From: an uncultured Candidatus Saccharimonas sp.
Lineage (GTDB): Bacteria > Patescibacteriota > Saccharimonadia > Saccharimonadales > AWTP1-31
Assembly: GCA_943354005.1 (NCBI GenBank)
Contig: CALRBE010000009.1
Span: 1-38,985, forward strand
Reading direction: 5' to 3'
Length of the DNA stretch: 38,985 bases
Of this stretch, positions 8,746 to 38,849 are shown piece after piece. Each line of letters begins with the position of its first letter. Position 1 is the first letter of the stretch. Position numbers and translations under genes: made by a program. A model generated the notes under the pieces. That model worked only from the letters and a program-made list of their open reading frames with translations, was not told the origin of the DNA and did not search any database.

Positions 8746-9495
8746 ATGGAGAGTCAAGAAAGTATGAATCACTTGGTGATTCCAGATTCGCATGGAGAAT
8801 ACGATAAGGTAAGTCGTATTATTGATGCATACGAAAATACAGTAGATCGTTTTGTATTCCTAGGGGATGTAATTGACGGTCGTGAGGTAAAACCACTTAT
8901 AAACCTAATACAAAGCCTTGGAGATAAGGCTATAACAATTGTAGGAAATCACGAGTGGGTACTGCGTAATGCATTGCAGGACGAGCCAAAAGAGCTCGTA
9001 GCCCATTGGAGGCATCGGTTGTGGAGTCGATATGAGCGCGATATGTTAACCAGCTATGGTATTGCACGTACACGTAAGTGGGATATCAATGCAGAAGCAT
9101 TAAGTGATGTAATTCGTCCAAATGGTCACTATGACTGGCTTGCTAGTCTACCGGCATTTTATGAAACCGACTCGTTCGTTGCTATTCATGCAGGACCACG
9201 ACATGATTTGTCATGGGACATCCAGAAAAAAGAACTTGAAGATGCAAATACAGCAGAGCAACGAATGCAGACTGAACCTTTACAAGTATTTGACTTTGGA
9301 CTTTCTCAAGTACAGGACTTACCTGCTAGCGTAGACTCTAGATTATTTATTACGGGACATTCCCATCTTCCAGCTACTGCTGAAAATAGGCGAGCCGTAG
9401 GGCGCGTATGCCTAGGCTCTAGGACTCGAGCAGGAGATCCTTTCTTTACTTGGGAAAGTCAAAAAGACGAGATCAAGGCTCATATTTTTTCTTAA
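8746..9495 (+). CDS. Calcineurin-like metallophosphoesterase
   Basis: All five signatures of the family are present in 249 residues: IPDSHGEYD (D14, H16), FLGDVIDGR (40-46), GNHEW (67-71), AIHAGP, and TGHSHLP near residue 205. These residues bind the two metal ions. The spacing resembles the PP1/ApaH-type serine/threonine phosphatase and diadenosine tetraphosphatase group. It is cytoplasmic. The substrate (phosphoprotein, dinucleotide or RNA) is not determined by these motifs. A TAATAT box lies just before the ATG; residue 7 is an alternative start. The gene stands alone. Confidence 0.92.
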   Translation: MESQESMNHLVIPDSHGEYDKVSRIIDAYENTVDRFVFLGDVIDGREVKPLINLIQSLGDKAITIVGNHEWVLRNALQDEPKELVAHWRHRLWSRYERDMLTSYGIARTRKWDINAEALSDVIRPNGHYDWLASLPAFYETDSFVAIHAGPRHDLSWDIQKKELEDANTAEQRMQTEPLQVFDFGLSQVQDLPASVDSRLFITGHSHLPATAENRRAVGRVCLGSRTRAGDPFFTWESQKDEIKAHIFS

Positions 9496-13049: not shown

Positions 13050-13535
13050 ATGAATAAAAAGCCACAATCCACCGCAATTATAGGTATTATATCTATTGTA
13101 ATAATTTCTCTTATAGTAGGCGGTGTCTACGTTCTAAAGTCTGTATCAGACGATAACACAGCTACCAGCACTATGATGAATGATACTGCTTCGCAGCCAG
13201 CAGATTCAACTACTGGTAACGCCCCAATGATGAGCTCATTTAAAGACGGTACCTACGAAGCAACAGGAAACTACAATACTCCGGGCGGTAACGAGTCTAT
13301 TGACGTAACAATCGTTATTCAAAATGGTAAGATTATTGATTCTTCAGTTACAAGCAGGGCAAATTCACGAGAATCACGAGAATATCAATCAGATTTTGCG
13401 GATGGATATAAGGATCAGGTTAAAGGCAAGAGTATTGCAACACTTCGACTATCTCGAGTTGCAGGCTCTTCCTTAACTCCACGAGGATTCAATGAGGCAA
13501 TAGATGCCATCAAAACTCAAGCAACAAAATCATAG
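13050..13535 (+). CDS. FMN-binding domain protein, membrane-anchored
   Basis: The 161-residue protein has one N-terminal helix (about 9-30) with positive residues on the cytoplasmic side, a Thr/Ser/Met linker, and an FMN_bind domain (about 65-157) of the NqrC/RnfG/PplA type. FKDGTYEATGNY opens the domain and RVAGSSLTPRGF (136-147) is the flavinylation motif. In the family FMN is joined covalently to the last Thr/Ser of [ST]GA[ST]; here Ser141 would be the acceptor. The next gene encodes the transferase that makes this bond, overlapping by 32 bases. TAATCT six bases before the ATG suggests a leaderless operon start. It is likely an outward-facing electron acceptor. Confidence 0.9.
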   Translation: MNKKPQSTAIIGIISIVIISLIVGGVYVLKSVSDDNTATSTMMNDTASQPADSTTGNAPMMSSFKDGTYEATGNYNTPGGNESIDVTIVIQNGKIIDSSVTSRANSRESREYQSDFADGYKDQVKGKSIATLRLSRVAGSSLTPRGFNEAIDAIKTQATKS

Positions 13536-14391
13536 GTACTCTTTTGAGGCCATCGGAACTAAGTGGTCAATTGACCTATTAGCAACAAAAAATAATGCAA
13601 GTTTAGCTATCAATGCTATCCACGCAACCATTGAGCAGTTCGATAAAAATTATTCACGTTTTCGTTCTGATTCACTAATTACTAAAATTAGTCGAGCTGC
13701 AGGAGACTATGTGATGCCTGCAGATTTTTCCGATCTATATTACTTTTATCAGAAAATGTATGACGTCTCAAATGGTCTTGTGACACCTCTTATAGGAGAT
13801 GTGTTATCAGCCGCAGGCTATGACGCGGCCTACAGCTTTAAATCGTCACCCATGACAAAAGCCCCTGCCTGGGAAGATGTTTTGTCTTACAATCCCCCGT
13901 TACTAAGTGTCAAGACGGCAGTGCTTCTCGACTTTGGAGCGGCCGGAAAAGGCTATCTCGTAGACATTGTAGTGAATGTTTGTGAAGAAAAAGGGATCGA
14001 ATCTTTCGTTATAGATGCAGGGGGAGACATATACTGTCATGGAGTTACTGAGCAGATCGGACTAGAGAATCCCGATAATTTATCTGAAGTTGTCGGGATA
14101 GTTGACGTACGCAATCAGGCTATATGCGCATCTGCAGGAAATAAGCGCAAGTGGGCTAATTTTAACCATATTATGAATCCTAAAACACTAAGTTCCCCAA
14201 GTGCTATTAAAGCAGTCTGGACTATTGCCGATAACGCGATGCTTGCTGATGGAATGTCGACTTGCCTTTTCTTTGTAGAACCCGAGGCTCTATCTGAGGC
14301 TTTTAAATTTGATTATCTACTTATAAAAGCAGACAATACTACTAAACAATCGAAGACATTTAAAGGAGATATTTTCTATCAAGAAGCTTGA
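13504..14391 (+). CDS. apbE: FAD:protein FMN transferase
   Basis: The 295-residue ApbE-family enzyme moves FMN from FAD onto a Ser/Thr of a target protein using Mg2+. Visible signatures are IEQFDKNYSRFRSDSLITKI (about 43-62), LLDFGAAGKGYLVD (about 137-150), FVIDAGGDIYCHG (about 165-177) and the metal-binding TIADNAMLADGMSTCL near residue 245. The only start in frame overlaps the end of the FMN-binding gene, so the two are translationally coupled. Most ApbE proteins are exported and lipid-anchored; this one starts MPSKLKQQNHRYSFEAIG with no signal peptide. It ends in TGA. Confidence 0.93.
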   Translation: MPSKLKQQNHRYSFEAIGTKWSIDLLATKNNASLAINAIHATIEQFDKNYSRFRSDSLITKISRAAGDYVMPADFSDLYYFYQKMYDVSNGLVTPLIGDVLSAAGYDAAYSFKSSPMTKAPAWEDVLSYNPPLLSVKTAVLLDFGAAGKGYLVDIVVNVCEEKGIESFVIDAGGDIYCHGVTEQIGLENPDNLSEVVGIVDVRNQAICASAGNKRKWANFNHIMNPKTLSSPSAIKAVWTIADNAMLADGMSTCLFFVEPEALSEAFKFDYLLIKADNTTKQSKTFKGDIFYQEA

Positions 14392-14413
14392 CGCACTCAT
14401 AAATAAACTTTCA

Positions 14414-15895
14414 ATGTATAAGATCATGCTTTGGGGGCTTAGAGGGCTATTTGCAGTTTCTTGGCTTCTGAGTATAACTGGACAGCTACCGTACGGTCCG
14501 TATCGTCCTCTTATCAGTATCTCAATTCTGCTTGGAGCGTGCTTTGGTACTAGTTATATTTTTTCCAAACTATATAAAGTTACACCGAACGCTGAATCTT
14601 CTAACATCACCGCACTAATCTTGTACTTTATATTTCAGCCCCCAAAAACAGTCTTAGAAGGAGTAGCCATAGGTTTAGCGGGTGTAATAGCAATAGCCTC
14701 TAAATACCTGCTCACCATTCACCAACGTCACATACTCAACCCAGCAGCGGTAGGGGCAGTTGTTGTCGGATCTCTAGGACTTGTTCAAAGCAGATGGTGG
14801 GTGGGTAGTGCGGTACTTTTTCCTTTCGTACTAATTCTTGGCGTTTTAATAGTCCGGAAAATACATCGTTTCCCAATGGTTGCAGCGTTTATCGTTGCTG
14901 GTTTCGTGACTGCCGTCGGTATTGGGCTTCGTGATGGCACACAGATCACTACTCTAATTCGCGATACGACACTATCTTTCCCTTTGCTGTTCCTTGGAAC
15001 CGTCATGCTAACTGAACCATTTACTACACCACCAAGAAAATCTCTTCAAGTTATGTATGGAATTATTGTAGGTGTCTTGCTAAGCACCAGAGTAAGCATT
15101 GGCGACGTATCAATGACGCCTGAAATTGCTCTACTACTAGGCAACGTTTTCGGCTATGTTACTTCTCCTAGAAGGCGCCTACCCTTACGCCTAGTTTCTA
15201 TAAAGGAGATTGGTAGTACAATATTTGAATATCGATTCAAGCCTATTGTGCCATTTACGTTTAAAGCAGGCCAATACATCGAACTTACATTACCTCTAAA
15301 TCACGGGGATCTAAGGGGTAATCGACGTTCATTTACAATTGCATCTTCACCGACTGAGGAAGATATAATATTCGGGATTAAAGAAGTCCTACCCCTTCAC
15401 AGCTTTAAAGCAAAAATGTCTAAACTTCGTAAAGGCGATATCGTTACAGCGACTTCCTTAGCTGGAGACTTTACGCTTCCTAAGAATCTTTCACTTCCCC
15501 TTGTCTTCATTGCAGGCGGTATTGGTGTTACGCCATTTCGCAGCATCATAAAGTATCTGATCGATTCCAAGCAACAACGAGACATAACACTCTTTTACGC
15601 AGTATCAGATTCAGCTCAAATGGTCTACCTTGAAATTTTCGATGAGGCTAAAAAATATGGCATCAAAGTTGTTAAAGTTCTCTCAGTGCCTAAAGGTCAA
15701 AAAGCGCCAAAAGATTGGAGCGGGGAAGTCGGCTTTATCGATATGAAGTGTATTAAAAAATATGTTTCGGATGTTTCTGAAGCTATTTTCTATATATCAG
15801 GCCCGTCTGGCATGGTCCAAGGAACTCGTACTATGCTCCGCGATAATGGCATTGCTAGAAATCACGTTAAGACAGATTACTTTACAGGGTATTAG
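14414..15895 (+). CDS. NqrB/RnfD-like membrane domain fused to ferredoxin-NAD(P)H reductase domain
   Basis: The 493-residue fusion has about nine hydrophobic segments in residues 1-255, with the NqrB/RnfD signature RHILNPAAVG (about 104-113) and MLTEPFTTPP near residue 197. A cytoplasmic FAD/NAD(P)H-binding reductase domain follows (about 258-493), with RRSFTIASSP for FAD, FIAGGIGVTPFRSI and ISGPSGMV for the nicotinamide cofactor, and a C-terminal TDYFTGY. The SGAT flavin site of true NqrB/RnfD is not seen, and there is no 2Fe-2S domain. It lies 22 bases after apbE. The likely role is NAD(P)H oxidation with electron passage across the membrane to the FMN protein. Confidence 0.88.
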   Translation: MYKIMLWGLRGLFAVSWLLSITGQLPYGPYRPLISISILLGACFGTSYIFSKLYKVTPNAESSNITALILYFIFQPPKTVLEGVAIGLAGVIAIASKYLLTIHQRHILNPAAVGAVVVGSLGLVQSRWWVGSAVLFPFVLILGVLIVRKIHRFPMVAAFIVAGFVTAVGIGLRDGTQITTLIRDTTLSFPLLFLGTVMLTEPFTTPPRKSLQVMYGIIVGVLLSTRVSIGDVSMTPEIALLLGNVFGYVTSPRRRLPLRLVSIKEIGSTIFEYRFKPIVPFTFKAGQYIELTLPLNHGDLRGNRRSFTIASSPTEEDIIFGIKEVLPLHSFKAKMSKLRKGDIVTATSLAGDFTLPKNLSLPLVFIAGGIGVTPFRSIIKYLIDSKQQRDITLFYAVSDSAQMVYLEIFDEAKKYGIKVVKVLSVPKGQKAPKDWSGEVGFIDMKCIKKYVSDVSEAIFYISGPSGMVQGTRTMLRDNGIARNHVKTDYFTGY

Positions 15896-18808: not shown

Positions 18809-19636
18809 TTATTTTACAACTAGTAGAATCCAGAAAAATAGGGCCATTCCGACACCCATATTGATGTATGGGAACAGACTATAGAGCTTCATAACAGCTT
18901 TTGCATTTTTAGCCTGAAGAGTGATAATCATCATGAAACCATAGAGTACTCCTGCTGCAATTGAAAACTGCCCCAATGTAGATATTGATAAACCTGCTGC
19001 AAGCCCATAGCACACGAGGCAGAAGAGTAGCGTGCCAGCTTTTCCTAGTTGAGTTGCAATAGTATTAATCTTTGCTTTTTTGTCAGCCTGGATATCAGGC
19101 ACTGCTGAGTAGGCATGCATCGCCATACACCAAAATGCTGCTGCCAGGCAGAGATATAATGACGGCATTGTCTTTGAAACTACCGCATAACCAACTATTC
19201 CTGGAAAAATATATAGGACGTTAAAAATAGAATCAATAAGTGGTCGTACTTTGGCTCGAATAGGTGGCATTGAGTAAAATACACTAAAGAATAAGAAGCC
19301 TGCTATTCCCCATCTTACACTATTACCAATAAAAGGAAGTAACAAAAGAAATGGCGCATTAGTAATTGCAATCCAGCGCCACAGTTGTTTCTGTTCTTTT
19401 GGTTTTACCAATGTTTCGTAGGCTTCTTTTTTTGGATTATGTTTGTCAGTTTCATAATCAAAAATGTCATTAACTCCGTAAATTAATAGGTTCGCTGGAA
19501 AAGTAAAGTAAGCACCAAGCAGAATAATAAATGGCCAGCTCTGTACTGGACTAGCTGCAAGAACTCCAATTAAAAATGGTCCGGTTATATAAACCCAGAA
19601 ACGTGGTCGAGATATTTTGATTAGCCAGCGAATCAT
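18809..19636 (-). CDS. UbiA-family prenyltransferase, lycopene elongase type
   Basis: The 275-residue integral membrane protein has about eight helices and the two Asp-rich motifs that bind prenyl diphosphate through Mg2+: NDIFDYETD (56-64) and DIQADKKAK (181-189). The sequence around the motifs and the neighbours fit the lycopene elongase group (CrtEb/LyeJ), which adds two C5 units from DMAPP to lycopene to begin C50 carotenoids. Divergent from the CruF-like gene with only 19 bases between starts. Quinone or heme-O prenyltransferase is less likely because no such pathway is present. The exact substrate is inferred. Confidence 0.82.
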   Translation of the reverse strand: MIRWLIKISRPRFWVYITGPFLIGVLAASPVQSWPFIILLGAYFTFPANLLIYGVNDIFDYETDKHNPKKEAYETLVKPKEQKQLWRWIAITNAPFLLLLPFIGNSVRWGIAGFLFFSVFYSMPPIRAKVRPLIDSIFNVLYIFPGIVGYAVVSKTMPSLYLCLAAAFWCMAMHAYSAVPDIQADKKAKINTIATQLGKAGTLLFCLVCYGLAAGLSISTLGQFSIAAGVLYGFMMIITLQAKNAKAVMKLYSLFPYINMGVGMALFFWILLVVK

Positions 19637-19655
19637 ACTACCATTGATTGTAGCA

Positions 19656-20399
19656 ATGCATTACAAAAAAACCACAAAAAAGAATTTAATAGCTATATTG
19701 GGCTTTGCACTTTTTGTAGCCGCTTTCTTTACGACTAATCAAAAATTAACGCCTGATATGGCTCATGTCTCCAGTATTATGGTGGTTGTTTTCGCACTCC
19801 CTACCTATTATGCGATTATTAAGTTTAAGGGTTTAGCTCAAGGATTAATATTACTTTTGGTTCTTGGAATATATGCTCTATCTATTGAAACGTCGGCGCT
19901 GACAACTGGTTTTCCATATGGTGATTTTAATTATACTGGGGTTCTAGGAGCAAAGATTTTTGATATAACTCCTTGGACAGTAGCTTTTGCATATCCTCCT
20001 ATATTAATACTTGCTAATTGGTACGCCCGCACGAAGACAAAAAAATACCTTGGAGTTATAGTCTATACGGCCGTGTTTGCGACACTTATAGATATGGTGC
20101 TCGATCCAGCTGCAGTTCGCTTAGGATTTTGGTCATGGATTGATCCAGGTTTCTACTACGGCGTTCCTTTAGTTAATTTCCTTGGATGGCTACTGACTGG
20201 AGCTGTCGGAGCGTTACTAATACAAACTATGTGGGGCAATAAAAAGATGCCAAATTCACTTGCCTATAGTGGTATTGGCATTCTATGGTTCTGGACAGCA
20301 ATTAACATTTGGCTGGGCCATATCCTTCCATCTGTTATAGGAGTTTTGCTTTGTGTAGCTATTTTCTATCAATTGTCTCTGAAAAACAGTAGACTATAG
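19656..20399 (+). CDS. CruF-like carotenoid biosynthesis protein (C50 carotenoid hydratase type)
   Basis: The 247-residue membrane protein has seven or eight hydrophobic helices. Conserved features of the CruF/DUF422 family are visible: ETSALTTGFPYGDFNYT (about 81-97), DMVLDPAAVRLGFWSW (about 141-156) and YYGVPLVNFLGWLLTG (about 161-176). In haloarchaea CruF hydrates bisanhydrobacterioruberin to bacterioruberin; in green and cyanobacteria it acts in carotenoid glycoside synthesis. It is placed between a UbiA-type elongase and a CrtI/CrtD desaturase, the same trio as in haloarchaea. The ATG at 19656 is preferred to one 39 bases earlier, inside the divergent gene. Confidence 0.85.
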   Translation: MHYKKTTKKNLIAILGFALFVAAFFTTNQKLTPDMAHVSSIMVVVFALPTYYAIIKFKGLAQGLILLLVLGIYALSIETSALTTGFPYGDFNYTGVLGAKIFDITPWTVAFAYPPILILANWYARTKTKKYLGVIVYTAVFATLIDMVLDPAAVRLGFWSWIDPGFYYGVPLVNFLGWLLTGAVGALLIQTMWGNKKMPNSLAYSGIGILWFWTAINIWLGHILPSVIGVLLCVAIFYQLSLKNSRL

Positions 20400-20402
20400 G
20401 GT

Positions 20403-21905
20403 ATGCAGAAAAAACACGCAATCATTATTGGATCTGGCTTTGGAGCCCTTGGAAGCGCCTGTATCTTAGGTAAGGCTGGATGGAAAGTTACAGTTCTAGA
20501 AAAAAATGAATCTATTGGTGGTCGCGCCACAATCTTCAAGGCTAAAGGTTTTACTTTTGATCGTGGGCCAAGCTGGTATTTAATGCCTGATGTCTTTGAG
20601 CATTTTTTTGAACTTTTTGATGAAGATATTAATAAGCATCTTGATCTAAAGAAGCTTACTCCAAGTTATCGAATTTTCTATAAAGACCTTAATGAAAAAG
20701 TAGATATTTATTCAGATCTCAAAAAAGATATTCCAACCCTTGAGAAGATAGAAAAAGGGTCTGGTGCTCAACTTGAGAAATACCTAGATCAGGCTGGCTA
20801 CCAATATGAAGTCGCTAAAGATCGCTTTATGTATAAGAACTACGACTCCGTTCGTGACTTCCTAACTAAAGAGGTTGCAACCGAAGGACGTAAACTATCA
20901 GTTTTTAAAAATATGGATCGCTACGTACGGGGCTACTTTAAGACTGAGCAACTTCAAAAGATTATGCAGTATCCGCTAGTTTTCCTTGGTTCAAGCCCAT
21001 ATAACACCCCTGCAATTTATAACATTATGAGTCATATTGATTTTAATATGGGAGTATTTTACCCCCAAGGTGGTATCTACGAGATCACGAAAGCTCTCAT
21101 AGCAGTTGCCAAGAAATATGGCGTTACTTTCAAGACAAATAGCGATGTCCAGAAAATAATTGTTGAAGATGGAAAAGCCGTTGGCGTAAAAGTTAATGGT
21201 AAAGAGCTTCGCAGCGATATCGTCATAAGTAATGCGGATATCCACCATACGGAGCAAAAATTGTTAGCTGAACAATACCGTGAATATTCTGAATCCTACT
21301 GGAAGAAACGAACGCTGGCTCCAAGCGCATTAATTATGTACCTAGGAGTAGATAAGCAATATGATTCACTAACTCACCACAACCTACTATTTAGCCGTGA
21401 CTGGAAAGAGAACTTTGCTCAGATATTTGACCAGCCTCAGTGGCCAGATGATCCAAGCTTATACATCTGTGCTCCTAGTAAAACTGACCCCAATGTTGCA
21501 CCTAAGGGCATGGAGAATATGTTTGTACTTGTGCCAATAGCAGCTGGACTTAATTACACAGAAAAACAGCTTGATGCCTATGCAGATAAAATTCTTGCAA
21601 CTATGGAAAAAGAAATGGATCTGCCTGATCTTCGAAAGCATATAATCTACCAAAAAAACTTCTCAGTGAAAGACTTTAAGGATAGGTATAACAGTTACCA
21701 AGGAACTGCACTTGGACTTGCTCATACACTAAGACAAACTGCTATATTTAGACCTAACAATATAAGCAAGAAAGTTGCTGATCTCTACTACGTTGGAGCA
21801 GGTACAAATCCCGGTATTGGCATGCCTATTACACTGATTAGTGCAGAACTACTCTACAAGCGCATTATTGGTGACAAGACTAGCGGACCACTCAAAAAAA
21901 TATAA
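20403..21905 (+). CDS. Carotenoid desaturase (CrtI/CrtD family)
   Basis: The 500-residue FAD enzyme begins with the dinucleotide fold IIIGSGFGALGSACIL (7-22) followed by EKNESIGGRAT. It carries FTFDRGPSWYLMPDVF, typical of CrtI-type desaturases, and ends with the FAD-binding YYVGAGTNPGIGMPITLISAE. CrtI turns phytoene into lycopene and CrtD makes 3,4 double bonds in C40/C50 carotenoids; the two are hard to separate by eye. Because no phytoene synthase is nearby and the neighbours are a C50 elongase and CruF, a CrtD-like role in bacterioruberin formation is quite possible. It starts three bases after the CruF-like stop, in one operon. Confidence 0.92.
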   Translation: MQKKHAIIIGSGFGALGSACILGKAGWKVTVLEKNESIGGRATIFKAKGFTFDRGPSWYLMPDVFEHFFELFDEDINKHLDLKKLTPSYRIFYKDLNEKVDIYSDLKKDIPTLEKIEKGSGAQLEKYLDQAGYQYEVAKDRFMYKNYDSVRDFLTKEVATEGRKLSVFKNMDRYVRGYFKTEQLQKIMQYPLVFLGSSPYNTPAIYNIMSHIDFNMGVFYPQGGIYEITKALIAVAKKYGVTFKTNSDVQKIIVEDGKAVGVKVNGKELRSDIVISNADIHHTEQKLLAEQYREYSESYWKKRTLAPSALIMYLGVDKQYDSLTHHNLLFSRDWKENFAQIFDQPQWPDDPSLYICAPSKTDPNVAPKGMENMFVLVPIAAGLNYTEKQLDAYADKILATMEKEMDLPDLRKHIIYQKNFSVKDFKDRYNSYQGTALGLAHTLRQTAIFRPNNISKKVADLYYVGAGTNPGIGMPITLISAELLYKRIIGDKTSGPLKKI

Positions 21906-21940
21906 GTCTTATTTATTTAAAAGAGGCTAGAAACTTTTGA
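21902..21940. repeat. 39-bp direct repeat, left copy
   Basis: This copy matches 23188-23226 at 38 of 39 positions and the poly-A before it also matches. It contains the stop and last codons of the idi gene as a displaced fragment, next to the desaturase stop codon. Confidence 0.9.
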
Positions 21941-21947
21941 GACCTAC

Positions 21948-23165
21948 TTATCCAGGCAGCTCAACATGATGATGTTTTATTCTATGCGTACAGCCACATG
22001 CAACCATTACAAAATAAGCGATAATTGCACCAACTAAAAGGTACAAAGCCTGAACCTTGAGTGTGCCGCTAATTCCAATTGCTCCAACCAGTACACCTAG
22101 TATAATTCGTGCAATTATTTGGAAAAATTGTTGAATAAAAGCAATTGATGATGTAACCGTAGCTCGAATTGAGCTATCGGTATTTTCGTGTATGTAGTCT
22201 GAGATGATTGGTGATTGGGTATTGAATAAACCTTTAGCTGCTATAAAAGATGCTATGAGCAAGAAGGGCGTAGTAAAGACAGCCATGATACCATAAGCGA
22301 TTGCCAGCATAATACTCAATGACGGAACAATCTTTTCAAGCGGTAGGAAATTCTCAAGCCTGTGTGAGTTGCGTAATGCAAAGAAGTTCACGATTGCACC
22401 CATGGTCAGTACCAATCCAATATATATTGGTTTTACACCAGCACTTTGGAAGTATGGCTGGTAAACACTGTAAAGAAAATACTCGCCGCTAAAGGTAAGT
22501 ATTGGTACAAGGAGCAAAGTAAATACTGTCTTATTTGTCCTGATGAGCTTCAGACTAGAACGAACAAGTGCGGTACTCTTTTGCTTAATAGCCTGTGATA
22601 ATTTGGATGGGTTTTTAAGTGTTAATGCTATACCGAGTGCTATAACCTCTGTAAAACCAGTGATAAGGATAAGTGGCACATAGCTATTGCTACCGTATTG
22701 GGCTAATACCAAACCAGCAATTAAGGTAGAGGCAGCGAAACCAACTATGTCATTTGAGCTATAAATCCCCCATGCTCTTCGAAAGTTATTTTTACCGTCA
22801 TCACTAGCAAGAACGCTCTCGTACATTAGTGACTCATCACTACCGCTCACAAAAGATTTGCTCAACCCTCGTAAACTATATGAAACGATCAAGCCAAAAC
22901 CACCAGGAATTATGACCATCAGTACATAGGCTATCGCAGCAACGAAACCGCTCAAGACGATTGATTGCTTATGACCTATTTTATCTGCCAATACCCCCGC
23001 AGGTATATTGCCTACTAAATAGAAAATAGCGTAAAAAACTTGGCTTATTACGATTAAAGATAAAGCCACGCCTTGCGAGATAAAGAAAAGTGAGACTATC
23101 GGTAGGTAGAAAGCCATACCCTTGAAGACGGACATTGCCTGTAGTTTTGATACATTACTTTTCAC
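21948..23165 (-). CDS. MFS transporter
   Basis: The 405-residue protein has about 12 hydrophobic helices and the major-facilitator loop signature between helices 2 and 3 (GVLADKIGHKQSI, about 57-69). It resembles drug or metabolite efflux permeases; the substrate is unknown. The start is GTG at 23165, set by TATGAT exactly six bases upstream. The gene and almost nothing else lies between 39-bp direct repeats derived from the end of idi, which shows that it was inserted between the desaturase and idi genes. A role in carotenoid or precursor transport is possible but not shown. Confidence 0.9.
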   Translation of the reverse strand: MKSNVSKLQAMSVFKGMAFYLPIVSLFFISQGVALSLIVISQVFYAIFYLVGNIPAGVLADKIGHKQSIVLSGFVAAIAYVLMVIIPGGFGLIVSYSLRGLSKSFVSGSDESLMYESVLASDDGKNNFRRAWGIYSSNDIVGFAASTLIAGLVLAQYGSNSYVPLILITGFTEVIALGIALTLKNPSKLSQAIKQKSTALVRSSLKLIRTNKTVFTLLLVPILTFSGEYFLYSVYQPYFQSAGVKPIYIGLVLTMGAIVNFFALRNSHRLENFLPLEKIVPSLSIMLAIAYGIMAVFTTPFLLIASFIAAKGLFNTQSPIISDYIHENTDSSIRATVTSSIAFIQQFFQIIARIILGVLVGAIGISGTLKVQALYLLVGAIIAYFVMVACGCTHRIKHHHVELPG

Positions 23166-23171
23166 AAGTTC

Positions 23172-23177
23172 ATCATA
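23172..23177 (-). promoter_or_regulatory. -10 box (TATGAT) before a GTG start
   Basis: On the minus strand TATGAT lies six bases before the GTG start of the MFS gene; no Shine-Dalgarno is present. Confidence 0.6.
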
Positions 23178-23187
23178 TCAAAAAAAA

Positions 23188-23226
23188 ATAAGTCTTATTT
23201 ATTTAAAAGAGGCTAGGAACTTTTGA
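23188..23226. repeat. 39-bp direct repeat, right copy
   Basis: The copy is in its original place: it covers the last nine codons and stop of idi and the bases that follow. The single difference from the left copy is one A/G change. Confidence 0.9.
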
Positions 23227-23771
23227 AAATCACTATTGTTTTTTAGATGCTTTAGTTGATCCTTGCACCACCATGACCAAACGTCAGTAGTATCTTTTTG
23301 AATTACAGTCTCGTAATCATTCCAGGACATCCATTTGTAATCCTCTACTTCTTCTGGGTTGGGACTGAGTTCATCGTCAGTTATAGCTACGTATACGGGA
23401 CAAAATTCATGTTCAATTATTCCGTTATATGGCGGTGTCTTGTACATATATTCAGGAAGTATTACCTGGTAATCGCGTGCTTTTAGACCTACCTCGTATT
23501 CTAGACGTCGCTTCATAGCGTCAACAATTGATTCCCCAGGACCGGGGTGACCACAGACACTGTTTGTCCAAACATCTGGCCAGACTTTTTTGCTATGTGC
23601 CCGTTGAGTAACTAAAAATTCACCTTTTGTATTGAATACGTAGCATGAAAAAGCGAGGTGAAGTCTAGTTGTTGATGTGTGAGCATCTAGCTTTTGTGCA
23701 GTCTCCCCTGTTGGCTCTCCTTTTTCATTTACATATACTATGAGGTCGTTGTTTGGGTTATTGTTGTTCAT
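23199..23771 (-). CDS. idi: Isopentenyl-diphosphate delta-isomerase, type 1
   Basis: The 190-residue Nudix-fold enzyme interconverts IPP and DMAPP. Catalytic Cys73 is in NSVCGHPGPGES and the acid pair in IIEHEFCPVY (Glu120, Glu122), corresponding to Cys67 and Glu114/116 of the E. coli enzyme. Metal-binding His residues lie in HTSTTRLHLAFS. The size is normal for bacterial and archaeal type 1 enzymes. DMAPP is the donor for the lycopene elongase nearby. TAAAAT six bases before the ATG suggests leaderless transcription; it diverges from the Nudix/IPK operon. Confidence 0.95.
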   Translation of the reverse strand: MNNNNPNNDLIVYVNEKGEPTGETAQKLDAHTSTTRLHLAFSCYVFNTKGEFLVTQRAHSKKVWPDVWTNSVCGHPGPGESIVDAMKRRLEYEVGLKARDYQVILPEYMYKTPPYNGIIEHEFCPVYVAITDDELSPNPEEVEDYKWMSWNDYETVIQKDTTDVWSWWCKDQLKHLKNNSDFQKFLASFK

Positions 23772-23777
23772 AAACTA

Positions 23778-23808
23778 ATTTTACAATGTTTTACGAGTTT
23801 CGTATAAT
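23778..23808. promoter_or_regulatory. Divergent leaderless promoters of idi and nudix-ipk
   Basis: The 44-bp gap holds TAAAAT on the minus strand (23778-23783), six bases from the idi ATG, and a perfect TATAAT on the plus strand (23803-23808), seven bases from the Nudix ATG. Both operons could be controlled together from this gap. Confidence 0.65.
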
Positions 23809-23815
23809 GCAACCC

Positions 23816-24472
23816 ATGTCATTGATTAACAGCAGTCTTGGTGTAGAGACCGGTTATTTACCACACCATCAAGAATCAGATCTTAGAGATATGCACGCCA
23901 AAGGTTTTATGCGCTACGGAGTGGTGGCAATGGTACTTGATTATCAAAACCGTTTATTGCTTCTTGAGCATGCCGCGAGCGATAAAACAGAAGAAGGCAT
24001 GTGGGGTGCTCTCGGAGAGACAAGCCATGCATTTAAAAATAATGGTACATGGGAGGTTGAACCGGTAGGGACAACGGTTATTCGTGGGTTACGCGAAGAG
24101 ACAAATGCCGATCTTCAATCTGAAGATTTTGATACACCTGTATTTGGTAATTGCATTGATACTTCATGGCCAATTGGATCTCGCTTCTTGGATCAGTATG
24201 CATACGCCTCAGTACCACTACTATTTGCAGGTCCTGAAACAGTCGAAAAGATAATGGATACACCCGTTAATAATGAAGAGATACGGTCAAAGCGCATGGT
24301 TCCTCTTGAATGCGTATTAAATTATGAACTTCGAAAAGGAACAATAGCCTGGCTGGCCATTGGGGCTGCTGCACTAAGTACTGCTAGTAATGAGACTGTT
24401 CCTTTGCAATCACAGACCTGGACTCCAAATGGCTCAGTACAAGATGCTGTCCTAAGTGAGCTCTTCCGCTAA
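23816..24472 (+). CDS. Nudix hydrolase
   Basis: The 218-residue protein has a Nudix fold: strand MRYGVVAMVLDYQNRLLLLEH (about 32-52) and a Nudix box that reads GALGETSHAF...GLREETNADL, with the REET half clear and an insertion of about 12 residues between the two halves. The Glu residues of REET would bind Mg2+. The start is the ATG seven bases after TATAAT; two upstream ATGs precede the box. The stop and the IPK start are one base apart, so the two are translationally coupled. A prenyl-diphosphate substrate is an inference from this link; a nucleotide substrate is also possible. Confidence 0.85.
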   Translation: MSLINSSLGVETGYLPHHQESDLRDMHAKGFMRYGVVAMVLDYQNRLLLLEHAASDKTEEGMWGALGETSHAFKNNGTWEVEPVGTTVIRGLREETNADLQSEDFDTPVFGNCIDTSWPIGSRFLDQYAYASVPLLFAGPETVEKIMDTPVNNEEIRSKRMVPLECVLNYELRKGTIAWLAIGAAALSTASNETVPLQSQTWTPNGSVQDAVLSELFR

Positions 24473-24473
24473 T

Positions 24474-25247
24474 ATGAATGCTGTTTTTATTAAGCTCGGC
24501 GGCAGCCTTATAACAGATAAGGCTCGACCGAAGCATGCCCATACTCAGCGCATAAAAGCATTGGCTGCTGAAATATCAGATCTTTATAATAACATCCCTG
24601 AAATGGTGTTTTTTATCGGCAATGGCGCTGGATCATATGGTCACTATGCAGTGCATCAGACTAAGTGGCGTGATAAAAAAGATGATCCCTTGCGTATCGC
24701 TAAAATACGCCAAGTTACAACTGAACTACATTATATGATTCGAGATGCGCTGATTGAAGCTGATGTGCCTGCGCTATCTTTCGCAGCAGCATCATTTAGT
24801 AAGCGTTCTAAGGGACTTGCTGAAGGGTGGCTAGATAGTATGTTCTCATATGCAAAGAACGGCTCCGTGCCCCTTGTTTTTGGTGATATGGTCTACGATG
24901 ATAAAGATGGCGCCTATGTGCTTTCAACTGAAGAGATAATAGAGCTAGTTGCTAAGTCCTGGGTTAAGGACGGTAATAAAGTAAGCTCAATTATCTATTG
25001 CACTTCAGTAGACGGGGTTCTTGATTCTAACAATACTGCTATTCCATTACTAGATACTAAGACAGATCTTGCTAGCATAGGAAGTACTCATGGATTTGAT
25101 GTAACGGGAGGCATGGCACAAAAGATTGCTGCTGGTAAGCGAGCTCTGGCTTTCACAGACCACGTCTATATTATAAATGGGACTCGTCCCGGTTCACTGG
25201 TCAGTGCTGTCGCGCATAAGCAAGTTGGGACCCGAATTGTAGCATAA
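24474..25247 (+). CDS. Isopentenyl phosphate kinase, archaeal type
   Basis: The 257-residue amino-acid-kinase-family protein phosphorylates isopentenyl phosphate to IPP with ATP. FIKLGGSLITDK (5-16) holds the phosphate-binding Lys7, and IGNGAGSYGH (48-57) holds the diagnostic catalytic His57, which separates IPKs from carbamate and fosfomycin kinases. CTSVDGVLD and FDVTGGMAQKI are the ATP-side motifs. IPK is best known from archaea, where it belongs to the alternative mevalonate pathway, and is rare in bacteria. It follows the Nudix gene by one base and supplies Idi and the elongase. The start at MNAVFIKLGG is preferred over an ATG inside the Nudix gene. Confidence 0.92.
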   Translation: MNAVFIKLGGSLITDKARPKHAHTQRIKALAAEISDLYNNIPEMVFFIGNGAGSYGHYAVHQTKWRDKKDDPLRIAKIRQVTTELHYMIRDALIEADVPALSFAAASFSKRSKGLAEGWLDSMFSYAKNGSVPLVFGDMVYDDKDGAYVLSTEEIIELVAKSWVKDGNKVSSIIYCTSVDGVLDSNNTAIPLLDTKTDLASIGSTHGFDVTGGMAQKIAAGKRALAFTDHVYIINGTRPGSLVSAVAHKQVGTRIVA

Positions 25248-37413: not shown

Positions 37414-38190
37414 TTAGTTAACTGAATTCATTGTTCCAAGTACAAGGATCCAGGCAAGTGCGGACTTAGAGACAAGACTGAGGACAATATAAGCTTTTTC
37501 TCCGTAAACATAGTCTTTCCATTTTCCAACCTTTTTGTACTGTAGCCACATATTAACTGCGAAGGTGTTAAAGAATATAAAGGTTAGTAGAAATCCTGCT
37601 TTTGCGTAGCCCGGAATAGAGTCAGCGATATTATTCGTACTTTCCCAGAAGTATAGGCCACCAATTATCCAAGGCACGATACCTGCTAGTACACCGATAT
37701 TAAATGGGAACCAGGATGTCTTGGTCGTGAACTGATTATAGCGTTCCATCTCGAGACCCATCATGTTCATAATGAAGTTAAGTGTAAAGACGAAGACAAC
37801 AGCCGGTAACTCAATTAAACCTCCGAGCATTAGAAGTGCAGTTAACATAATAGAAGAGCTTAATGAATACTCCCACCAGCGCATTGGATTCATGCCTTTT
37901 GCAATGTTGGCTTCGTACTTTCTTATATAGAAAGGTGACGATATAAAGAAATGGAACATAGCTGAGATAAGTAAGAAAACTGGTCCAACGACTGCAATTG
38001 GCACATTAACTAATATTTCAGAAACTGGTTGTATGCCATCAGCAGTTTTATCGAAGTAACGAGTAATAATCGGTATTTTTAAACCGTAGTTAACAATAAT
38101 AAAGAGAATTACTGCCTGAACAAAGTGGACTAATCCCATTCGTCGATTAAATTTTTGAAGCATTATGCCCTGTTTTGTTTTTGGATGCAT
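37414..38190 (-). CDS. Heliorhodopsin
   Basis: The 258-residue protein has seven hydrophobic helices and the heliorhodopsin signatures. NPMRWWEYSLSSSIML (101-116) has the counterion Glu107 and Arg104 at the same numbers as in heliorhodopsin 48C12, and the last helix AYIVLSLVSKSALAWILVLG carries the retinal-binding Lys242. FVFTLNFIMNMMGLEMERYN is typical of helix 5. Type 1 rhodopsin motifs (DTE or similar in helix C) are absent. Heliorhodopsins sit with the N-terminus inside and are not known to pump ions; proposed roles include signalling and enzyme regulation. An ATG at codon 10 is another possible start. No retinal-forming gene is in the window. Confidence 0.93.
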   Translation of the reverse strand: MHPKTKQGIMLQKFNRRMGLVHFVQAVILFIIVNYGLKIPIITRYFDKTADGIQPVSEILVNVPIAVVGPVFLLISAMFHFFISSPFYIRKYEANIAKGMNPMRWWEYSLSSSIMLTALLMLGGLIELPAVVFVFTLNFIMNMMGLEMERYNQFTTKTSWFPFNIGVLAGIVPWIIGGLYFWESTNNIADSIPGYAKAGFLLTFIFFNTFAVNMWLQYKKVGKWKDYVYGEKAYIVLSLVSKSALAWILVLGTMNSVN

Positions 38191-38246: not shown

Positions 38247-38849
38247 CTACTTACTGCTGTATTCACAAGTAACATGAATTTCATTGCGAGCAACTAGTGG
38301 AAAAGTCCACGGTGGGTTATATCGAGCACTCCTTGGCTTTCCAATTACTTTAATTCCGTCTTTTTTAAGTAGTTCAAGAAGCTTATCTTCCTGCATTTCT
38401 ATTCTTTGTGAATTAATTGGACCCCTGAATCGAAGTACCGCCACAGTATGTGCGGGGGTTGATATTAGCTGCACTCTGTCATCTACCGGACTTGGCATAT
38501 CACTTAGCTTAGAGCCCTCTGGCATAACAAATGAAATGCGTCTCTTTGTTGAAGATATTGTTGAGCTAAGAACAGGCGCTGTCATGGCAATTGATTGCTT
38601 TTTAATATTATTACCAAAAATGTAACCACCAACTCTTCTAAAACCTTCGCTTATACCCGACTTATAAGAACCGTCGACAACAGTTATGGCCTCCAGGAAA
38701 GGATCGTATTTTCGAATTTCGTAACCTTTTTTAATAGCAATGCGTTCATAGTTTGGCTCACTAACCCTAGATGAGAAAATACTGCTTACAATCCAGATAG
38801 CAAGGGCTAACATTGTGGCCATGAGAATGAAAAGTAAAAATTGGGTCAT
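38247..38849 (-). CDS. SOUL-family heme-binding protein, membrane-anchored
   Basis: The 200-residue protein has an N-terminal helix (about 4-24) and a SOUL domain (about 32-198). Signatures are KGYEIRKYDPFLEA, KQSIAMTAPV, RRISFVMPEGSKLSDMPSP and SARYNPPWTFPLVARNEI, matching the HBP/SOUL family that binds heme or other tetrapyrroles. The anchor suggests an outside or membrane-bound position. It is upstream of the heliorhodopsin gene on the same strand with 56 bases between. TACTAT lies seven bases before the ATG. Whether it binds heme or a related molecule cannot be told. Confidence 0.93.
   Translation of the reverse strand: MTQFLLFILMATMLALAIWIVSSIFSSRVSEPNYERIAIKKGYEIRKYDPFLEAITVVDGSYKSGISEGFRRVGGYIFGNNIKKQSIAMTAPVLSSTISSTKRRISFVMPEGSKLSDMPSPVDDRVQLISTPAHTVAVLRFRGPINSQRIEMQEDKLLELLKKDGIKVIGKPRSARYNPPWTFPLVARNEIHVTCEYSSK

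Follow-up and report, generated by a model that had tools for sequence, protein, structure and literature searches.

Candidate genes for a bacterioruberin-type C50 carotenoid pathway beside a putative C5 supply module in a Saccharibacteria genome

In haloarchaea, as in Haloarcula japonica (L164) and on a Halocatena plasmid (L104), the genes for a lycopene elongase (lyeJ), a carotenoid hydratase (cruF) and a carotenoid desaturase (crtD) are found together. The same trio was described in 2023 in Patescibacteria of Lake Baikal, including Ca. Saccharibacteria-Baikal1600m-PB-G46, and interpreted as C50 carotenoid genes in the sections of that account covered here (PMC9948471). The same three enzyme families lie together in a window of 38,985 nucleotides (the whole stretch analysed, contig C9) from the genome of an uncultured Candidatus Saccharimonas sp. 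(G000; 752,352 bases in 10 contigs, 98.5% complete). Judging from the sequence, this locus is likely to be the tailoring half of a bacterioruberin-type C50 pathway that is complete at the level of the genome, and it stands beside a module for the supply of C5 units. For comparison two congeners, one of them G002, and genomes of other families, including G015 and G098, were used.

A previous reading of this DNA (the sequence-only reading) had named five genes at 18809-25247. All five are long intact open reading frames with strong family matches at the coordinates below, and two further genes, encoding a major facilitator superfamily (MFS) transporter and a Nudix-like protein, are situated between them:

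18809..19636, minus strand: LyeJ-type lycopene elongase of the UbiA superfamily, 275 aa (PRK12875, Pfam UbiA)
19637..19655: intergenic gap of 19 bases between the divergent starts of lyeJ (start codon at 19636, minus) and cruF (start codon at 19656, plus)
19656..20399, plus strand: CruF-type carotenoid hydratase, 247 aa, ATG start (Pfam Caroten_synth)
20403..21905, plus strand: CrtI/CrtD-type desaturase, 500 aa (NF058655)
21948..23165, minus strand: MFS transporter between crtI and idi (Pfam MFS_1 3e-17)
23199..23771, minus strand: type I isopentenyl-diphosphate isomerase (Idi), 190 aa (PRK03759)
23786..24472, plus strand: divergent Nudix-like protein in tandem with IPK, 228 aa (Pfam NUDIX, only E 0.076)
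24474..25247, plus strand: isopentenyl phosphate kinase (IPK) (NF040647)

For cruF, the ATG at 19656 is preferred over the less likely TTG listed at 19617. The ATG of the IPK gene at 24474 follows immediately after the stop codon of the Nudix-like gene, with a GTG at 24456 as alternative candidate. The 16S gene region of the genome exactly matches the TM7905 probe, which fits Saccharibacteria and bears out the earlier description of a Candidate Phyla Radiation (CPR)-like genome.

The locus is kept at 70-99% identity in both congeners and is therefore not a chance arrangement; as far as the contig reaches, the trio is also kept in G015, which belongs to another family. The genome offers a candidate gene for each step that leads from isopentenyl diphosphate (IPP) to a C50 carotenoid of the bacterioruberin type. 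The two genes for the early steps, which the sequence-only reading had correctly noted as absent from the window, are present elsewhere, adjacent to each other on another contig (C2:19719-21705):

C2:19719-20564: crtB, candidate phytoene synthase (PF00494 3e-50)
C2:20599-21705: crtE, candidate prenyl chain (geranylgeranyl diphosphate, GGPP) synthase (PF00348 4e-47)

In the proposed pathway, isopentenyl phosphate would be converted to IPP by IPK, Idi would equilibrate IPP with dimethylallyl diphosphate (DMAPP), and CrtE and CrtB would form GGPP and phytoene, respectively. A single CrtI would convert phytoene to lycopene, LyeJ would add a C5 unit at each lycopene end, the same CrtI would perform the 3,4-desaturations, and CruF would hydrate the ends, so that bacterioruberin, or an anhydro form of it, would be made for the membrane. 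Bacterioruberin itself is C50H76O4, with 13 conjugated double bonds and four hydroxyl groups. These enzyme activities, the C50 product and the source of the C5 units we infer from the protein families.

LyeJ matched PRK12875 with 259 bits (NCBIfam cut-off 205), the same model that is matched by the haloarchaeal trio prenyltransferase (426 bits), while PDB searches with this protein gave no match. It showed 36% identity to the Ha. japonica trio protein (E 3e-52), its motifs NDxxDxxxD and DxxxD are conserved, and it is predicted to add C5 units to lycopene. CrtI reached 660 bits (cut-off 640) with NF058655, the model of a 'bifunctional phytoene desaturase/3,4-desaturase', and is about 46% identical to the Ha. 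japonica trio desaturase. For the Ha. japonica desaturase C0507, both activities were demonstrated by disruption and complementation (PMC11946383). With tblastn no second CrtI copy was found in the genome; the one in the window is predicted to perform both reactions. CruF matched Pfam Caroten_synth at 8e-39. The CruF-type and CrtI-type proteins stand beside the UbiA protein as had been proposed, forming the same trio as in bacterioruberin producers.

Because no mevalonate or methylerythritol phosphate (MEP) pathway was found, the cell would have to obtain its C5 units, as IPP, isopentenyl phosphate or a related alcohol phosphate, from an external source, the host cell being the simplest. Of the archaeal-type mevalonate pathway, neither HMG-CoA reductase (HMGR; Patescibacterial query in tblastn) nor mevalonate kinase was found in the genome, of which 72 kb of contig C2 read N; GHMP kinases as a whole were absent (14/14 controls positive) and occur in only 4 of 149 relatives. 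For the MEP pathway, tblastn with E. coli Dxr, IspE, IspF, IspG and IspH gave no match in the genome, whereas the positive controls UppS, PyrH, HisS and PrfA were found. Both congeners lack IspH as well, and 2 of the 149 relatives have one that reaches the cut-off; a Dxs query matched over its C-terminal half only, as expected of transketolase-type proteins. UppS had been missed by a motif scan and was recovered by tblastn; absences based on motifs only were therefore rechecked in this way. The archaeal-style IPP supply of the sequence-only reading can be retained as far as the IPK is of the archaeal family, but no mevalonate pathway was found behind it. Most freshwater CPR classes have been reported to be capable only of C10-C20 isoprenoid synthesis (PMC9166423). 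One relative, of an order in which IspH and GHMP kinases are otherwise almost absent, has idi adjoining ispH at G048:C3:119250-120728, some 11 kb away from the gene of a CruF homologue.

Host-derived IPP or isopentenyl phosphate, taken up into metabolism through the Idi/Nudix-like/IPK group, is the likely C5 source. Idi reached 217 bits with PRK03759 (cut-off 127), matched Idi relatives in the PDB at 1e-43 and keeps the motifs NSVCGH and EHEFCP. IPK reached 137 bits with NF040647 (cut-off 120), IPKs come first among its PDB matches (1e-21 and weaker), and the GSYGH histidine H57 and the lysines K7 and K16 are invariant; the earlier naming of both enzymes near the trio agrees with these scores and motifs. 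In the Nudix-like protein, which is only weakly matched by the Pfam model, E-x7-R-G-L-x-E-E is invariant in four sequences, with E replaced by G in the REU of the Nudix box GX5EX7REUXEEXGU. PDB searches with this protein gave no match, and AlphaFold of the lone protein gave a pLDDT of 31. An IPK above the cut-off is encoded by 4 of the 149 relatives, i.e. three genomes of this genus and G098. The latter shows the same order, with the IPK/Nudix-like tandem divergent from Idi, at only about 30% identity for IPK and the Nudix-like protein; the Nudix-like family is rare otherwise. Since no phytoene synthase or CruF was found in G098, the group probably forms a module for C5 salvage, placed by this genus beside its carotenoid genes. 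Among 380 sampled genomes of the wider phylum, 17 encode an IPK; in the Patescibacterium G166 it lies near HMGR and a decarboxylase-like GHMP gene, the usual mevalonate setting.

Idi can be assigned to the pathway because it is fused to CruF in Acidobacteriota and because an Arthrobacter plasmid carries idi within its C50 gene cluster. The fusion is a single protein of 432-458 aa in seven Acidobacteriota loci (L108, L110, L112, L114, L115, L116, L121), with its halves confirmed by Pfam in two loci and by NCBIfam in one. It directly supports a working link between Idi and the C50 pathway, in which additional DMAPP is required.

It is quite possible, if short of probable, that the Idi/Nudix-like/IPK group provides general C5 salvage for UppS and MiaA and is not specific for carotenoids, which would be compatible with the proposed pathway. 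UppS and MiaA, both users of C5 units, are encoded elsewhere in the genome, and the gene order of G098 speaks for such a role. However, in this genus the group stands directly beside crtI (in G002 the match to crtI extends to 8982 and that to idi starts at 8996, leaving 14 bases and no gene between them), three of the four relatives with an IPK above the cut-off belong to this carotenogenic genus, and Idi is fused to CruF elsewhere. The MFS gene, absent at this place in G002, is probably not part of the system, and was dropped as a candidate C5 importer. A more detailed proposal, which we consider somewhat unlikely in its entirety, is that a bacterium unable to make C5 units recovers host isopentenyl phosphate (and IPP) via a dedicated Idi/Nudix-like/IPK module and uses it to build a C50 carotenoid for its membrane, with IPK and the Nudix-like enzyme as an opposed pair that would set the balance between isopentenyl phosphate and IPP. 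In plants, IPK and Nudix hydrolases act on the same C5 pool; here the Nudix-like gene is in tandem with that of IPK.

Several points weigh against the complete pathway as proposed. The entry of IPP or isopentenyl phosphate into the cell is a postulated step, and 72,000 bases of contig C2 (C2:24001-96000) read N, so part of the absence claim rests on the relatives and on genome searches that may not cover this stretch. CrtE is a GGPP synthase candidate by family, with its chain length not settled. For CrtB, HpnD gives a slightly higher score (115 bits) than the CrtB models do (103 bits), in each case below the cut-off, and the HMM scores by themselves do not decide its role; a phytoene synthase is favoured over a squalene-type role because its orthologues (54% and 48%) are located in crtE-crtI-crtB clusters of G073 and G086, in the same order. 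Hydration is the least sure step, because CruF scores below the curated cut-offs (122 bits vs 154.7 for TIGR03460, 96 vs 300 for NF041333), although this is its best family nonetheless; the Acidobacterial CruF scores alike (124 bits).

With such a diverged CruF, the C50 carotenoid made might not be bacterioruberin but a C50 (or C45) compound that is unhydrated or finished in another way, an outcome that we regard as unlikely. It would be in line with several other Patescibacteria which have ubiA-crtI-crtB-crtE without a detected CruF, so that an unhydrated C50 carotenoid may be usual in the radiation. On the other hand, cruF and lyeJ form a divergent pair, separated by a short gap, in this genus, G015, Acidobacteriota and Abditibacteriaceae, and the acidic residues E78, D146 and D150 are invariant and common to haloarchaeal CruF. 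The genome has another gene of the Caroten_synth (CruF) family at G000:C8:6914-7735(+), which stands alone without carotenoid neighbours and whose product shows 22% identity to the CruF of the window.

The sequence-only reading had suggested that host-derived lycopene is tailored. Import of lycopene or another C40 carotenoid from the host is very improbable as the cell's only source. It would suit the host dependence of CPR bacteria, as Saccharibacteria are thought to take retinal from their hosts (PMC9296517), and in relatives G017, G019, G038 and G048 a CruF homologue occurs without a phytoene synthase. However, the suggestion is not needed since crtE and crtB are both in the genome, and it was rejected on this ground; crtB is also present in both congeners and G015 (crtE in G002 and G015), and the family of the single CrtI has phytoene desaturases among its members. 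The earlier proposal of a route to a C50 membrane carotenoid thus stands with candidate genes for all steps from IPP and the product deduced from the genes, and loses its host-supplied lycopene. The CruF homologues of the four relatives (L057, L058, L059 and L060 in G019, G017, G038 and G048, respectively) have no nearby CrtI or LyeJ match and could act on imported carotenoids.

That the UbiA protein is a quinone, heme or chlorophyll prenyltransferase located there by coincidence is scarcely credible and was rejected: although the superfamily is broad and its members are not told apart by Pfam alone (UbiA, 2e-25), quinone and homogentisate models give at most 39 bits against the PRK12875 score above, E. 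coli UbiA is merely 25% identical (E 6e-4), and the protein, within its trio context, groups with lycopene elongases as the sequence-only reading had assumed.

The nearest named relatives of LyeJ are found in Abditibacteriaceae (54%), a Parcubacterium (52%) and Acidobacteriota (46-51%), compared to 34-44% for haloarchaea. In the LyeJ, CrtI and CruF trees, haloarchaea each time form a supported clade of their own that excludes the window proteins, leaving a recent haloarchaeal transfer of the trio unsupported; in the CrtI tree, L113 and L109 are the nearest rows outside the genus (80/92 support). With p 0.70, the approximately unbiased (AU) test does not reject a LyeJ tree in which the window, G015 and haloarchaea share one side, so that the data are compatible with more than one sister group, direction of transfer and donor. 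The trio is present in the genus and in G015, with no CruF match in the other four genomes of the family, and this patchy spread suggests transfer or repeated loss. The same trio together with crtB occurs in Acidobacteriota, Abditibacteriaceae and haloarchaea.

Other genes of the window and genome were noted as well. At 13050-15895(+) an FMN-binding-like protein (weak match), an ApbE flavin transferase and an NqrB/RnfD-like membrane protein fused to a FAD/NAD reductase form a small flavin redox chain, which is kept in G002 and could be an electron outlet for CrtI. RnfD-like relatives lie within 10 kb of C50 genes in two other Patescibacteria (L127, 41%; L124, 34%). Two heliorhodopsins, about 41% identical to each other, are encoded at 37414-38190(-) of the window and at G000:C1:80105-80878(-) (Pfam 3e-82 and 4e-91); the former is 12 kb from IPK, next to the gene of a SOUL heme-binding protein (38247-38849). 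Saccharimonadia commonly have heliorhodopsins (PMC9166423). Neither a retinal-forming BCD nor a type-1 rhodopsin was found, which says little, as the control genomes were silent for both families.

If the proposed pathway is true, a near-minimal, host-dependent cell invests in a costly C50 pigment while relying on another organism for its C5 units, and host-to-symbiont transfer of isoprenoids becomes testable with labelled precursors. Acidobacteriota and several Patescibacteria join haloarchaea and actinobacteria as carriers of the bacterioruberin-type gene set, and through the CruF-Idi fusion the supply of DMAPP is coupled directly to C50 synthesis.

Compared with the haloarchaeal clusters, one desaturase model fits both the haloarchaeal and the window CrtI, while the trio proteins are 24-47% identical. 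The haloarchaeal genes are co-directional (crtI-lyeJ-cruF) with phytoene synthase nearby in many cases, whereas in the window lyeJ and cruF are divergent and crtE-crtB is on another contig. The IPK is of the same family as in the archaeal-type mevalonate route, unlike which no mevalonate pathway was detected here. The actinobacterial C50 cluster on the Arthrobacter plasmid (L106) likewise combines a lycopene elongase with idi, crtE, crtB and crtI, but its crtEb-type elongase belongs to PRK13105 and not to PRK12875, and it has no CruF match. The clusters of Acidobacteriota and Abditibacteriaceae (L108-L121, L146) share the divergent cruF/lyeJ pair, crtI and an Idi, with LyeJ 46-54% identical; they differ in that crtI lies on the other side of lyeJ, followed by crtB, in that Idi is fused to CruF in Acidobacteriota, and in having no IPK within the fetched loci. 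The Baikal Patescibacteria carry the same trio within the same candidate radiation, one of them being a Saccharibacterium, and received the same C50 interpretation; there, in the sections covered, cruF lies far from lyeJ and crtD or the genes are on separate reads, while they are clustered here, and crtE, crtB, IPK, Idi and missing C5 pathways are not discussed in those sections (PMC9948471). In the literature searched, no publication was found on the complete route, the missing C5 synthesis, the Idi/Nudix-like/IPK group or the CruF-Idi fusion. Already known from the covered part of the Baikal account is the trio in Patescibacteria, including one Saccharibacterium, with its C50 reading; new are the clustering of the trio, the full gene set from IPP onwards, the C5 synthesis found to be missing, the Idi/Nudix-like/IPK group and the CruF-Idi fusion.

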